DNA of 38,110 nt from assembly GCA_020726335.1 (NCBI GenBank), contig DYSU01000018.1:1-38110 (forward strand). Direction: 5' to 3'. Shown piece after piece: positions 25,791 through 37,891 of this stretch. Both the position numbers and the translations under genes were made by a program. The stretch's first letter is position 1, and the number at the start of each line of letters is the position of its first letter. Source of the DNA: Thiomargarita sp. Its GTDB lineage: Bacteria > Pseudomonadota > Gammaproteobacteria > Beggiatoales > Beggiatoaceae. Under the pieces are notes generated by a model. It had not been told where the DNA came from, ran no database searches, and saw only the letters and a program-made list of their open reading frames with translations.

Positions 25791-27122
25791 ATGTCCAAAA
25801 TTCAAACTGCTCTTGATTTCGCCTTCAGCCATGGTTTGGTGTTGTATCAAAACGATGGTCAAATCAACCACGCGCCTTTCAGTCTCAAACCCGCGCCCTT
25901 TCCACAGAAAAACATAAAGCAAGCCTATGATTTGGCTTCTGATTTTAATCAATTATTGGTCAATATCGCCCATGACCCTGATTTCCTCAGCCAAACTTTT
26001 CAGCCCATGGCCGATGATTTCAGCCAAAAGCTGTTGGCCATTTATCAGCAAATCTATCTCAAGCAATCACCTGTGCAAACCGTGGCGTTTAATCTGTTTC
26101 GCGCCGATTATTTATTGCAACCCAGCGGCTCAACCCACCAATTACGTCAAGTGGAAATCAACACCATTGCCGCCGCTTTTGTTTCGTTATCAAGTAAAAT
26201 CAGTGACTTACATCGTTATTTGTATCCGCGCCGCAACCTGCCGCCCAATGACAATTTAACCCAAGTCAGCGATGGTTTGGCTTTGGCGTGGCAAGCGTAT
26301 GAGCGCAGCAACACATGGGTGTTGTTTGTGGTGCAAAAGCCAGAGCGCAACCGTTTTGACCAACAACAGATGGCACACGCCCTGTTTTTTCACCACGGTA
26401 TTCGCAGTATGCGCCTGACATTGGCGCAAGTTCATCATCAATGTCGCTTAAAAAAACAACGGCTGTATATCGGCCAACGCGAAATCGCGCTGGTGTATTT
26501 TCGCGCAGGTTATAGCCCCAACGATTACCCAAGCAAACAACACTGGGCGGCGCGTTTGCTGTTGGAACGCAGTGCGGCGATTAAAGTGCCGACCGTGGCG
26601 TTTCAATTGGCGGGGATGAAACAAGTGCAACAAAGCGTCGCCGATGTGGATGCGCTCAAAAAATTCATCCCAGACAGTGCGCAACGCCAGCGTATGCAAG
26701 CCTGTTTTGCCCAATTTTATCCTTTGCACGATGAAACCCACCGCCAATTGGCCTGTACCCAACCCGATGATTTGGTGTTAAAACCGCAACGTGAAGGCGG
26801 CGGCAATAATGTGTATGGCCATGATTTAGCGAAAAAAATCAAAAAGATGGACAAAGCCGACTATACTTCATGGGTGTTGATGGAAAAAATCCACGCGCCT
26901 GTACATCAGGGCCGTTTGGTGCAACAACAAAAAATCACCGCCAAACAACCGTTGATCAGTGAATTGGGTATTTTCGCCACTTGTTTGAGCCAAGGCCAAC
27001 AACTGTATCACAGCCAAGCCACAGGCCATTTGTTGCGCACCAAACTGGCTTATCATCACGAAGGCGGCATTGTCGCAGGTTTTGCCGCCTTAGACAGCCC
27101 CAATGCAGTCAAAACCCTGTAG
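25791..27122 (+). CDS. gss: Glutathione synthetase, eukaryotic type
   Basis: This enzyme joins gamma-glutamylcysteine and glycine with ATP. The 443-residue sequence follows the eukaryotic GSS family (human about 474 residues), not bacterial GshB (about 315). It shows the APFSL.P start, LFRADYLLQ, the magnesium/ATP segment VEINTIAAAF (Glu122, Asn124), EIALVYFRAGYSPNDY, HWAARLLLERS, LAGMKQVQQ, the ATP-binding KPQREGGGNNVYG (Lys331, Glu335), LMEKI, ISELGIF, the substrate-binding GHLLRTK (Arg417) and the C-terminal EGGIVAG loop. All active-site blocks are present in family order, so it should be active. The ATG at 25791 has an AAAAGG box; an upstream in-frame start at 25773 is less likely. A HAD gene follows after 2 bases. 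gshA is not in the window. Confidence 0.9.
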   Translation: MSKIQTALDFAFSHGLVLYQNDGQINHAPFSLKPAPFPQKNIKQAYDLASDFNQLLVNIAHDPDFLSQTFQPMADDFSQKLLAIYQQIYLKQSPVQTVAFNLFRADYLLQPSGSTHQLRQVEINTIAAAFVSLSSKISDLHRYLYPRRNLPPNDNLTQVSDGLALAWQAYERSNTWVLFVVQKPERNRFDQQQMAHALFFHHGIRSMRLTLAQVHHQCRLKKQRLYIGQREIALVYFRAGYSPNDYPSKQHWAARLLLERSAAIKVPTVAFQLAGMKQVQQSVADVDALKKFIPDSAQRQRMQACFAQFYPLHDETHRQLACTQPDDLVLKPQREGGGNNVYGHDLAKKIKKMDKADYTSWVLMEKIHAPVHQGRLVQQQKITAKQPLISELGIFATCLSQGQQLYHSQATGHLLRTKLAYHHEGGIVAGFAALDSPNAVKTL

Positions 27123-27124
27123 CC

Positions 27125-30142
<3,018 letters not shown>

Positions 30143-33311: not shown

Positions 33312-35102
33312 TTATTTGTTGAATAAAGGGTTAAATTTGGCTGAAATAATGTAAAGTGTGCGAAAAAGCAACAGCAACGAGGCTAAAAACCAACTGACCA
33401 AACTGACCCAATTGGCCACTTTTTGTGACAAAGGCATGTTAAAATCGTAGGGTAAATATTGGGTAAAACGTTGTAATTCATTTTTTTGCGACAGTTTAAA
33501 ATGATCGCCCGCTTGGCACGAGTTTTCTTTGGGAAAAGTATAACAAGCAGGATTTTTCATATTAAAATCATTACCTTGGTTGTCTGTCACCAAGCCACCA
33601 AACAGCTTGTCTTTTTGCGGAAAAAACTCAAGCCGATAACCAAACAAGGGTTCATAACAATTAATTTGCGACACGCCAATGGCCATTAAATCATCGCCGT
33701 GCAACGGGCTGTTGGTCACTTGCGCCGCCACATAGCGAATAAACGGCACTTCACCTGTTTGTTTGGCTTGTTCATACGCTTGTTGTATTGGTTTGGGGTC
33801 ATAAGATTGGTTTTGATAAAAGCTTTTGTCTTTGCCCACATTAATCGCAATCACCCACGTAATAAAAACCAAACTGGCGATGGCTTTGACTTCAACATCC
33901 AATTTTAAACGGTCAAATACAATCATCGCCATCACAATAAAAACAGGGATATAAATCAAATACCAACGCACCAAATTAGAGCTGTTTTTGATGATAGGTA
34001 TTTGTTTTAAAACATGATTCCATTCAGGGGTATAAAAATTGACCATGACGGGAATCAACAAAATGCCGATTAACCCTGCAAAATACAGCCATTGCTTGCC
34101 TTTTAATATCCACAAATAACGCAGGCCAATCAATAAAAAAATCAATGGAATGAAAGTGATACCAAATTCCATTTCATGTTGGTCTATGCGCCAACGGCTG
34201 TTAGCAAACAGGGGTTTAGATACCTCCCACGTCCAAGTGTCGATAAACAACGCTTTAAACGGCACCCAAAATGCGTCAAATAAATGGGCAAACCCGGGTA
34301 AAGGGTAGGCTTCTCGAGATAAATGACCCAAAGTTGCAAAAGCCACTGACAATTTGGCCGCACTCAACAATAAAACAATGCCTAAAAAAACAGACAATCG
34401 CAGTAAATAAATCGAGAAATATCCATATTTAATCGCATGAATTAAACCAATGGCCAGCAAGGTTAAACCCATGGGCAATAACAAATGCGCACCTGCGGCA
34501 TAAAAAACAGAAGAAAATAACAACGCGGCAGTCAACAACAATGGAAAATCATGTTTAATATTAAAGGGTTTTGTTTGTTGCCAAACCAAAAGCACAGCCA
34601 ATAAAGGCAACAAAGCAAAACCTTGAAAATTAACATGGCCGACAACCATGCGATACGCATAAAAACCATTGAACAAAAACAAAGTTGCGCCCAACAAAGC
34701 CACCCAATAAGAACAAGCGAACAGCTTGCGCAATAAAAAGTAAAACCCCCAAAAACCCATGATTGCAAAGACCAGAAAACTCAACCAAGTGGCGGTCAAT
34801 GGGTCAAATAAAAAACTTAAAAACTGCGGTATTGAAAAATACATATCTTGTGGATGGGCAAACAGCAATGTGCCGCCACACATTGAAGGACTGAACCATG
34901 GAATGGAAAATAAGCCGTTATTTAAGAACCAATAATAAGTTGCCAAAAAACGGGGCATTAAACCAGAATAATCATGTCCAACATACCCTCGATTATTGGG
35001 AAAAAAATCTGCAAATATCAGTGCATAAACCAGCAATAATGACAAAAAAATAATCAACAAGCCTGTTTTTGATTTTAAAAAAGATAGAAAATTGTTTTTC
35101 AT
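33312..35102 (-). CDS. Polytopic membrane protein, probable GT-C type glycosyltransferase (Gtr-like)
   Basis: The 596-residue protein has about a dozen hydrophobic helices and a soluble, probably periplasmic, C-terminal segment (about 425-560) before a last helix. A loop after the first helix carries YVGHDYSGLMPR, an acidic-residue position typical of GT-C fold enzymes and YfhO-like proteins that move sugars from polyprenyl phosphates. It overlaps the GtrA-like gene by ATGA. In serotype-converting gtr operons, a third large membrane protein of this kind attaches the sugar delivered by GtrB and GtrA; that role is inferred here from position and topology, not from a recognised family signature. 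Confidence 0.65.
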   Translation of the reverse strand: MKNNFLSFLKSKTGLLIIFLSLLLVYALIFADFFPNNRGYVGHDYSGLMPRFLATYYWFLNNGLFSIPWFSPSMCGGTLLFAHPQDMYFSIPQFLSFLFDPLTATWLSFLVFAIMGFWGFYFLLRKLFACSYWVALLGATLFLFNGFYAYRMVVGHVNFQGFALLPLLAVLLVWQQTKPFNIKHDFPLLLTAALLFSSVFYAAGAHLLLPMGLTLLAIGLIHAIKYGYFSIYLLRLSVFLGIVLLLSAAKLSVAFATLGHLSREAYPLPGFAHLFDAFWVPFKALFIDTWTWEVSKPLFANSRWRIDQHEMEFGITFIPLIFLLIGLRYLWILKGKQWLYFAGLIGILLIPVMVNFYTPEWNHVLKQIPIIKNSSNLVRWYLIYIPVFIVMAMIVFDRLKLDVEVKAIASLVFITWVIAINVGKDKSFYQNQSYDPKPIQQAYEQAKQTGEVPFIRYVAAQVTNSPLHGDDLMAIGVSQINCYEPLFGYRLEFFPQKDKLFGGLVTDNQGNDFNMKNPACYTFPKENSCQAGDHFKLSQKNELQRFTQYLPYDFNMPLSQKVANWVSLVSWFLASLLLLFRTLYIISAKFNPLFNK

Positions 35103-35518
35103 GATTTAAATGAGTAATTTTTATGGCCTAAATAGCTGATAATGACAGTGACAATTGCAGTGATAGCCTGTGCGGCAATTGGATTGAGATAAATCAGTTC
35201 AACTAAAACAGCCATTAAAAGAAGATTGGTAATAAAACCGATGCCATAAACAAAATAAAAACGTAAATATTCACGCAAATAATTACCTACTGTTTTAAAT
35301 ACCCATAATTTATAGCAAATATAGGCATTGGTAATAGAAATTATATTGACAGGAATAAGTAAAATCAAATAGTGAACAGTATCAGAAAGAAAATAATAAA
35401 ACAACGAATAAGTTATAAAGCCAAATAAGGTATTCCAGCCACCGACAAATAAATAGAGGGTTTTTTGTTGATATTTATGTAGCAATGATACGATTCTATT
35501 TAAAATTATTGTCATCAT
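35099..35518 (-). CDS. GtrA-family flippase-like membrane protein
   Basis: The 139-residue protein shows four membrane helices and the GtrA-family landmarks LYLFVGGWNTLFGFITYSLF near the start and an aromatic/basic YLGHKNYSFKS end. GtrA-like proteins are thought to flip polyprenyl-phosphate-linked glucose or a similar sugar across the inner membrane. It overlaps the preceding glycosyltransferase by 23 bases and the following membrane protein by four, so the three are made as a unit. Two adjacent ATGs (35518, 35515) are possible starts. Confidence 0.85.
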   Translation of the reverse strand: MMTIILNRIVSLLHKYQQKTLYLFVGGWNTLFGFITYSLFYYFLSDTVHYLILLIPVNIISITNAYICYKLWVFKTVGNYLREYLRFYFVYGIGFITNLLLMAVLVELIYLNPIAAQAITAIVTVIISYLGHKNYSFKS

Positions 35519-36428
35519 CTATGATGTATAAGGGTCTTTTTCGCGTTTCATCATAGATGCGGCCAATATATTCACCCAGTATCCACATTAACATAAATAA
35601 AAATCCAACGAAAATAAACAAAACAACAACCAACCATTTAAATAATGGATAAGGTACATCATATACTAACGCATCAACAAACATATATGATAACATCAAT
35701 GATCCCAACGCAATGCTGATAATGCCTAGAGCCAAGCCAATGCGCAAGGGCAAAAAAGAAAAACTCAGCACGCCATCCATTGCCAACTTAAACATTTTCT
35801 GATAAGAATAACCTGTTTCACCATGTATGCGTTCAGGTCTATCAAAATCAACAAAAGTATGTTTATATCCCAACCATGCAATCATTCCCCGCAAATACCT
35901 TGATTTTTCTTCCATTCCACTTAAACTTTTAAGCACTTTTTTATCAATTAAACGAAAATCCCCCACATTACGCGGAATTTTAACATCAGAAAATCTATCT
36001 AAAAGTTTATAATAAAAAATTGCAGTGTATTTTTTAAAAAAGTTATCTTGCCGTGTTTTTCTTCGAGCATAAACAATATCATAGCCCAAGTGCCACTTTT
36101 TAATCATTTCAGCAATCACTTCGGGCGGGTCTTGTAAATCACAATCCATAGAAATGACCGCATCAGCGTCTTTAACTGCATTTAAGCCCGCAGTGAGTGC
36201 CGCTTGATGGCCAAAATTTCTACTTAAATTAATGTATTGAATATGCTTGTTGTCATTATTTGCATGACTTTTTATCACATTCAAACTATCATCACAACTG
36301 CCGTCATTAACAAACAACAATGTCCAGTTTTCTTCAAATTGTTGCATCAAATGCACTATTTTTTCATATAATAATGGAATATTGTGCATTTCATTGTAAA
36401 CAGGGACAACAAAGGAAATCTTTTTCAT
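35496..36428 (-). CDS. GtrB-like polyprenyl-phosphate glycosyltransferase (GT2)
   Basis: The 310-residue protein has a GT2 domain of the DPM1/GtrB type (VVPVYNEMHNIPLLYEKI, LFVNDGSCDD, RNFGHQAALTAGL, the metal-binding MDCDLQDPPEV, GDFRLIDKKV, KSRYLRGMIAWLG). Two C-terminal membrane helices (about 225-250 and 262-285) are followed by a conserved GEYIGRIYDETRKRPLYII tail. Family members transfer a sugar from a nucleotide donor to undecaprenyl phosphate on the cytoplasmic face. The donor sugar is not deducible. It overlaps the upstream glycosyltransferase by ATGA and the GtrA-like gene by 23 bases. Confidence 0.88.
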   Translation of the reverse strand: MKKISFVVPVYNEMHNIPLLYEKIVHLMQQFEENWTLLFVNDGSCDDSLNVIKSHANNDNKHIQYINLSRNFGHQAALTAGLNAVKDADAVISMDCDLQDPPEVIAEMIKKWHLGYDIVYARRKTRQDNFFKKYTAIFYYKLLDRFSDVKIPRNVGDFRLIDKKVLKSLSGMEEKSRYLRGMIAWLGYKHTFVDFDRPERIHGETGYSYQKMFKLAMDGVLSFSFLPLRIGLALGIISIALGSLMLSYMFVDALVYDVPYPLFKWLVVVLFIFVGFLFMLMWILGEYIGRIYDETRKRPLYIIDDDNNFK

Positions 36429-37258
36429 TTTTTATAGGGTAAGAAAAATTGATAAAACAGTTTTCTCAATATATTATTGAGATGACTCATAGTAATTCCA
36501 CAATAGCGATCGAATGTTGTAATGGAATATGCTTTATTCTTATAGAGTTTATTAATTAATAACTTCATGTCAACATGCTGGCTATTGGCAAGATTGATAC
36601 TACAGGACTTGTTAGACACCCTAAAAGCACATAATGGTTCTGGAATGACGTAAAGGTTACCTGTTAATAAAATTCTACTCCAATATTCTAAATCAATTAC
36701 ATAAGGCATGGTCATATCAAAAAATCCAATTTTCTTAATAACTTCTTTTCTAAATAAAACAGCCGTGGGTTCTCCTATCAAATTTGTGCCTGCCCTAATA
36801 TTCTTTTTAATAGCATAAGCACCTTGTAATTCTCCAATAACGTTTGGAAACTGCCGTACTAAAATTTTTTTGCCCTTTTCATTTATAATATCTCGGCTAC
36901 AGCTTACCATAATAATGGTACTATTATCAGGATGTTCTAATACATTTATTTGCTTTATCAAGCAATCAGGATAAAGTACATCATCATCACAGAGCAACTT
37001 AATATATTTTCCTTTTGCCTTATTTAACAAGCTATTCCAATTTTTTTCAGGACCTAAATTAACTTTATTCTGATAAAATTTGATACGCTCATCATTATAA
37101 CTTAGTATAATTTTTACCGTATTATCAGTAGAACAATCGTCTATGATAATTAATTCAAAATTTTGATATTGTTGTTGCAATACTGAATCTATTGCAAAAT
37201 ATATATATTTTTCACTGTTATAACTTGGAATACAAACGGAAACAATAGGTGTTGTCAT
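36425..37258 (-). CDS. Family 2 glycosyltransferase
   Basis: The 277-residue protein has the GT-A start SVCIPSYNSEKYIYFAIDSV, IIIDDCSTDNT, a DxD-type LLCDDDVLYPD and a FFDMTMPYVIDLEYWSRI acceptor-side segment. No membrane helices are evident, so it is probably cytoplasmic and acts on a lipid-linked oligosaccharide. The gene is very AT-rich compared with the housekeeping genes, and its stop overlaps the start of the GtrB-like gene (ATGA). Donor and acceptor are unknown. Confidence 0.85.
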   Translation of the reverse strand: MTTPIVSVCIPSYNSEKYIYFAIDSVLQQQYQNFELIIIDDCSTDNTVKIILSYNDERIKFYQNKVNLGPEKNWNSLLNKAKGKYIKLLCDDDVLYPDCLIKQINVLEHPDNSTIIMVSCSRDIINEKGKKILVRQFPNVIGELQGAYAIKKNIRAGTNLIGEPTAVLFRKEVIKKIGFFDMTMPYVIDLEYWSRILLTGNLYVIPEPLCAFRVSNKSCSINLANSQHVDMKLLINKLYKNKAYSITTFDRYCGITMSHLNNILRKLFYQFFLPYKK

Positions 37259-37294
37259 TTGAACATACTATCCTAAATTTTAATTACATAAACA

Positions 37295-37882
37295 TTATTC
37301 TGGTACAAAAATTTCAAAAATCGACATGTTTAAATAGAAATACTTCCCTATAAATTTTCTATTTATTGGGTGATAATACTGCTTATTTATTATTAATTGA
37401 TACTTTTGACAGAATTCAAAAATAATTGATTCATCAATAAAAGTTTGATGTGTTGGATCACATTGATAACCTTTTTCGCATGGAACGATAATCAGTAAAA
37501 TGCCTTTTGGCTGTATTATTTCCTTTATATTTTTGAAAAAAGAATCAATTTGATTTAGATTTAAATGCTCTAATACATTATCACAAATTGCATTATCAAT
37601 TTTTATATTGTAAAGATTTATAATATTTCCTTCTTGAACATTGAGTTCTTTGTTTTTACAAAATGTAACAAAAGATGGGTTTGAGTCTATACCAAAAGCA
37701 TCAATATTCTTTTTTCTACAAAATATTAAAAATTCTCCCATGCCACAGCCTAAATCATAAATTTTATTTTTATTAAATGATTGCATATATTTAGGGTAAA
37801 TAATGTAGTGTAGAAACAAATCTCTACCTGGCAAATATTTTTTCTCCAAATGTTTTTTATATGCTTTACTTTTAGTATCCAT
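37295..37882 (-). CDS. Class I SAM-dependent methyltransferase
   Basis: The 195-residue protein has the glycine-rich SAM loop IYDLGCGMGEFLIFCRK, the acidic IDAFGIDSNPSF strand-two region and the post-motif DNVLEHLNLNQIDSFF. It fits the small methyltransferases found in O-antigen and capsule clusters, which methylate sugars. The gene is strongly AT-rich. The ATG at 37882 has a GGTGAT box with good spacing; an in-frame GTG three codons upstream is less likely. The next gene starts 36 bases after its stop. It is not obviously a duplicate of the zinc-ribbon methyltransferase at 10197, which shares only the generic motifs. Confidence 0.8.
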   Translation of the reverse strand: MDTKSKAYKKHLEKKYLPGRDLFLHYIIYPKYMQSFNKNKIYDLGCGMGEFLIFCRKKNIDAFGIDSNPSFVTFCKNKELNVQEGNIINLYNIKIDNAICDNVLEHLNLNQIDSFFKNIKEIIQPKGILLIIVPCEKGYQCDPTHQTFIDESIIFEFCQKYQLIINKQYYHPINRKFIGKYFYLNMSIFEIFVPE

Positions 37883-37891
37883 ATTTATCAC

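Follow-up and report, generated by a model that had tools for sequence, protein, structure and literature searches.

The window, the whole 38,110-nt stretch of Thiomargarita DNA analyzed here, encodes a real, full-length eukaryotic-type glutathione synthetase (GSS). Its reading frame opens with an ATG and runs to the stop codon without a frameshift or intron (Table 1). Upstream, glyA and a small LysM-like gene are encoded on the opposite strand. Downstream, a gene for a YqeG-like HAD phosphatase starts 2 nt past the GSS stop codon and is followed by leuS and lptE. Judging from this arrangement, the HAD gene is probably co-transcribed with GSS, and a functional link between the two is not evident. 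Most genomes of the family share the HAD gene; its neighbors vary, and the GSS insertion site, sought through this gene within the family, was not located. The codon use (CAI-like value of 0.71) and GC content (0.482) of GSS are within the range of 16 neighboring genes, in agreement with the initial annotation, which had described ordinary bacterial neighbors and native codon use. Therefore, the gene is neither a contaminant nor an evident recent import, and a eukaryotic contaminant contig was rejected on these grounds. Separately, a block encoding a membrane protein, a GtrA-like protein, a glycosyltransferase and a methyltransferase lies at the right end of the window, and one gene within it has a GC content of only 0.38, unlike the remainder of the stretch.

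Table 1. Coordinates of the features discussed in the text; entries beginning with L refer to loci in other sequences unless the Thiomargarita genome is named
Feature	Position	Strand	Basis or remark
Eukaryotic-type glutathione synthetase (GSS), 443 aa	25791..27122	+	PF03917, PF03199 and TIGR01986 above cutoffs; PDB matches; AlphaFold2 model
VEINTI block; E122 and N124 correspond to human E144 and N146 (Mg ligands)	26151..26177	+	Alignment, human numbering
KPQREGGGNN, glycine-rich ATP/Mg loop; K331 and E335 correspond to human K364 and E368	26781..26810	+	Alignment
EGGIVAG, C-terminal loop in the pocket for the acceptor amino acid	27060..27080	+	Alignment
YqeG-like HAD phosphatase	27125..27685	+	PF09419; TIGR01668 below its cutoff
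Membrane protein, GtrA-like, glycosyltransferase, methyltransferase block	33312-37891
Low-GC gene	33312-35102
GshB-like gene and FGase-MATCAP ORF, Thiomargarita genome	L049:1284-4335	-	Overlapping ORFs
gshB remnant, D100SM.bin.11	L056:2902-3297	-	Compared with S013_42
Intact gshB, S013_42	L057:2953-3897	+	Compared with D100SM.bin.11
GSS with FAD-dependent oxidoreductase and formyltransferase-like genes	L007:428-4783, L016:5974-10336, L009:3354-7332
Plasmid GSS-like gene	L060:5965-7401, L061:5965-7401, L063:5965-7401

The family assignment is consistent across profiles and structures. PF03917 matches residues 5–437 (E = 6.7e-99), and PF03199, the substrate-binding domain inserted within PF03917, matches residues 176–274 (E = 3.8e-34). 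The TIGR01986 equivalog model scores 416.6 bits against a curated cutoff of 329.8 (E = 1.2e-124) and is covered from position 5 to 471 of 473. Among solved structures, the best sequence match is to potato GSS (E = 3.6e-83), followed by human GSS (E = 9.7e-79), with 36–39% identity to the human enzyme. Conversely, the models of the bacterial GshB family (TIGR01380 and PF02955), whose members have the same predicted reaction, do not match the protein at E ≤ 0.001 in the Pfam and NCBI profile searches. The six active-site blocks listed in the initial annotation are all present in the eukaryotic order: VEINTI (residues 121–126), KPQREGGGNN (331–340), LMEKI (363–367), SELGIF (390–395), GHLLRTK (412–418) and EGGIVAG (424–430). 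Its central claim, a eukaryotic-type GSS in a bacterial chromosome, is thus borne out. The enzyme itself is already known; its host and role are unusual.

Thiomargarita GSS shares full-length homology, Pfam domains, predicted fold and ligands with eukaryotic GSS/GSH2 (2hgs, human; 5oes, potato; 1m0t, yeast), but it lies on a bacterial chromosome and is about 30 residues shorter than the human protein. GSS and GshB are ATP-grasp enzymes related by circular permutation (PMC2876114). An AlphaFold2 model built from 26 bacterial sequences (pLDDT 94.5) has a TM score of 0.94 to human GSS (2hgs) and 0.95 to 3kal_A, and the protein is predicted to share the permuted ATP-grasp fold of eukaryotic GSS. 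In the alignment, 14 positions are identical to their human equivalents (human numbering): R125, E144, N146, E214, N216, Q220, R267, Y270, K305, K364, E368, E425, R450 and K452. We take these to be the Mg, ATP and dipeptide side-chain ligands from what is known of the human enzyme, in part from PMC5919673.

Two sites in the active site differ from the eukaryotic enzymes. In the dipeptide pocket, human S149 and S151 are replaced by A127 and A129. In the acceptor loop, V428 and A429 stand in place of human A462 and A463; the corresponding residues of soybean homoglutathione synthetase are Leu and Pro. In the soybean enzyme, this position plays a part in the choice between glycine and β-alanine. 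Based on the loop sequence (VA here, AA in human, LP in soybean), glycine is the likely acceptor. It could be argued that the protein is instead a GSS-family ATP-grasp ligase with a changed substrate, either another dipeptide or an acceptor such as β-alanine, given the alanines in the pocket and a valine where the soybean enzyme has leucine. Nematode GSS paralogues have indeed lost the canonical activity; in these, the side chains that hold the substrate glutamate are replaced (PMC5919673). However, all side-chain ligands checked are kept in the Thiomargarita protein, and in potato GSS the two serines contact the substrate cysteine by backbone only (PMC5919673). At the second position of the loop, the protein has the Ala of GSS enzymes and lacks the Pro of soybean homoglutathione synthetase, and the genome has gshA but no canonical gshB in its assembly. 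A changed substrate therefore appears very unlikely, and Thiomargarita GSS is very probably a functional enzyme, as far as catalytic activity can be judged from the sequence and the model.

Glutathione is the main cellular antioxidant. The initial annotation had proposed a search for gshA and gshB elsewhere in the genome, which is a 2.1 Mb draft in 88 contigs, 96.8% complete. An E. coli-type gshA is present (TIGR01434 equivalog, 517 bits against a cutoff of 393). Canonical gshB was not found in this assembly, the best TIGR01380 score being below the cutoff; at 96.8% completeness, the gene could be absent from the assembly only. With the absence of canonical gshB, overlooked in the initial annotation, the finding is no longer a mere curiosity but a probable gene displacement. 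We propose that GSS works in place of GshB, with canonical gshB lost once GSS was established (non-orthologous gene displacement), and we assign this reading a probability of about 0.8. The E. coli-type GshA would perform the first step, and GSS would act downstream, converting γ-glutamylcysteine, glycine and ATP to glutathione. The order of events in the Thiomargarita lineage, with GSS established before gshB was lost, is what we infer. The reading is based on the family, the predicted fold, the conserved active site, the presence of gshA, the lack of canonical gshB in the assembly and the distribution of the two synthetases among other genomes, described below.

The sole GshB-like protein of the genome, on contig C42, bears directly on this proposal, since it might still make glutathione, in which case GSS would be a redundant second synthetase. 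The protein belongs to subfamily NF009110 ("glutathione synthetase"; 418 against a cutoff of 408), and both of its GSH-S domains are intact. Coexistence of GSS and GshB is also seen in the metagenome-assembled genome (MAG) S013_42. In contrast, the C42 protein falls under both equivalog cutoffs (TIGR01380, 220.6 against 299; PRK05246, 264 against 272). Its gene overlaps an ORF for a fused N-formylglutamate amidohydrolase (FGase)-MATCAP (QEGLA) protein, and this overlap suggests that it belongs to a different pathway. Moreover, in G009, another genome of this family, GSS is present and GshB-like matches are entirely absent. We consider redundancy improbable, and GSS is probably the only dedicated glutathione synthetase that the Thiomargarita genome encodes.

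Other genomes also bear on the proposed displacement of GshB by GSS. Of 32 bacterial genomes retrieved through their GSS genes (gammaproteobacteria, SAR324 and cyanobacteria), 31 lack canonical gshB. Canonical gshB is over the cutoff in 160 of 190 gammaproteobacterial relatives, in line with the earlier statement that most gammaproteobacteria use GshB, and in none of the three GSS carriers among the 190. The comparison within the 190 genomes has a Fisher p of 0.0036, a value that ignores shared ancestry. Conversely, about a dozen family members without canonical gshB, some of them incomplete drafts, also lack GSS, which counts against displacement. Genomes of one genus of the family, g20 (G019, G033, G038, G040 and G041), have neither canonical gshB nor GSS; a different thiol, or a different ligase, may serve in them.

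The one exception among the 32 genomes, S013_42, retains both GSS and an intact 314-aa GshB, which counts against displacement. In its near twin, the MAG D100SM.bin.11, the GSS region is 97% identical to that of S013_42, and the corresponding gshB locus holds a 131-aa remnant. Relative to the intact gene, this locus lacks two in-frame segments of 330 and 222 bp, a loss of 184 codons that leaves the remnant without most of the ATP-grasp domain. Microhomologies of 7 and 9 bp at the deletion joints were deduced from overlaps between the aligned segments; the flanks are 92–93% identical. Taken from MAG assemblies, this pair would look like gshB loss after displacement, caught part-way. An empty gshB site was sought in relatives and not located, the gshB neighbors differing between genera.

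E. coli-type gshA is present in five of the six gammaproteobacterial GSS carriers tested. The exception, G157 (L003, L051), has GSS and no clear gshA of either type at 94% completeness, which is a point against displacement. GCS2-type ligases are found in most SAR324 and cyanobacterial carriers. A bacterial-type GshA combined with a eukaryotic-type GSS is thus the common arrangement among carriers. In two different gammaproteobacterial contexts, GSS lies beside the same two genes, encoding an FAD-dependent oxidoreductase and a formyltransferase-like protein.

GSS is rare in the class. PF03917 is present in 3 of 190 related gammaproteobacterial genomes (family and class sample) and in 2 of 369 genomes across Gammaproteobacteria, and vertical inheritance across many gammaproteobacteria, which the initial annotation had held to be incompatible with its claim, was not seen. 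A single-protein scan of a species-level genome collection gave no match. A profile scan of this collection gave 42 loci, including five other gammaproteobacterial MAGs, a large SAR324-type set and five cyanobacteria; more carriers may exist because the pattern search was strict. In an even sample of 244 cyanobacteria, only the center genome, a carrier picked beforehand, was over the cutoff. Neither sequence searches of phages and viral contigs nor a fold search of BFVD found GSS, and a viral carrier is thus unsupported. A literature search found no description of GSS in these bacteria, and earlier notice elsewhere is possible.

The bacterial relatives of Thiomargarita GSS are of two further kinds. 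The SAR324 and cyanobacterial proteins (Pleurocapsa, Symploca and Trichodesmium) are likewise eukaryotic-type, are found in genomes without canonical gshB, and include loci above the TIGR01986 cutoff (L014, L039). However, they form a separate clade (100/100) with 31–37% identity to Thiomargarita GSS, and in most of their genomes gshA is of the GCS2 type, not of the type seen in E. coli. The GSS-like genes of enterobacterial plasmids and Vibrionaceae large replicons also contain PF03917 and PF03199 and are annotated as "glutathione synthase". These are more distant, with about 26–28% identity to Thiomargarita GSS, KNQGEGGGHC in place of KPQREGGGNN, a long branch, and TIGR01986 scores of 235 and 246 against the cutoff of 329.8. 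In all, 351 plasmid records, most of them from Escherichia and Salmonella, carry the distant gene. Many of the plasmids are conjugative, and the gene has IS26 and resistance genes as neighbors; in one case an arsC-like gene is adjacent to it.

The gammaproteobacterial GSS proteins form one clade in three trees (96/86, 77/96 and 98/94). Together with the eukaryotic proteins, they are separated from SAR324 and cyanobacteria, with support of 100/100 when the plasmid genes are left out and 80/89 when they are included, and are the nearest bacterial relatives of eukaryotic GSS among the sequences compared. Because the use of the plasmid and Vibrionaceae proteins as an outgroup lowers the support in this way, no root is claimed; the trees contain only three or four eukaryotes and have no reliable root. 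When yeast and other long branches are removed, human and plants form a clade (89/75) that is sister to the gammaproteobacterial clade (98/94). Eukaryote monophyly is not rejected with yeast included (AU p = 0.41). Within the gammaproteobacterial clade, the path from Thiomargarita GSS to CSMAG_543 is about 2.2 changes per site, compared with about 1.8 between human and potato. Since this depth at least equals that between human and potato, the acquisition of GSS looks old.

The initial annotation had suggested an old transfer from a eukaryote to a bacterium. Its age agrees with the clade depth. A eukaryotic donor is possible, although with long branches removed the gammaproteobacterial clade is sister to the eukaryotes and not nested among them. 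The sister placement and the depth fit either an early-eukaryote transfer or a bacterial source of the eukaryotic enzyme. An old transfer from a eukaryote to a gammaproteobacterium, followed by spread to a few others, would be compatible with displacement. It is favored by the patchy distribution and by the grouping with eukaryotes apart from SAR324 and cyanobacteria. The GSS family is, in addition, the standard glutathione synthetase of eukaryotes. Conversely, no tree nests the gammaproteobacterial clade inside eukaryotes with support, its divergence is at least that of human and potato, and the family is also found in SAR324, some cyanobacteria and, distantly, on enterobacterial plasmids. 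We therefore hold a eukaryotic donor only tentatively, at somewhat less than even odds. It is also conceivable, although less likely than not, that GSS arose in bacteria (SAR324 and relatives, and gammaproteobacteria) and that eukaryotes obtained it from a relative of the gammaproteobacterial carriers. If so, the group that includes Thiomargarita GSS would be the nearest bacterial sister known for the eukaryotic enzyme.

For the origin of eukaryotic glutathione synthetase, the only account given is that an ATP-grasp protein was recruited (reviewed in PMC10295655, citing earlier work). Bacterial chromosomes that carry GSS, nearly all of them without gshB, provide a testable bacterial sister group for the origin of the eukaryotic enzyme, and the twin MAGs offer a view of what may be a gene displacement under way. 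Annotation based on gshB only would score genomes like that of Thiomargarita as lacking glutathione synthesis, and the identification of GSS corrects the annotation of the glutathione pathway in these organisms.
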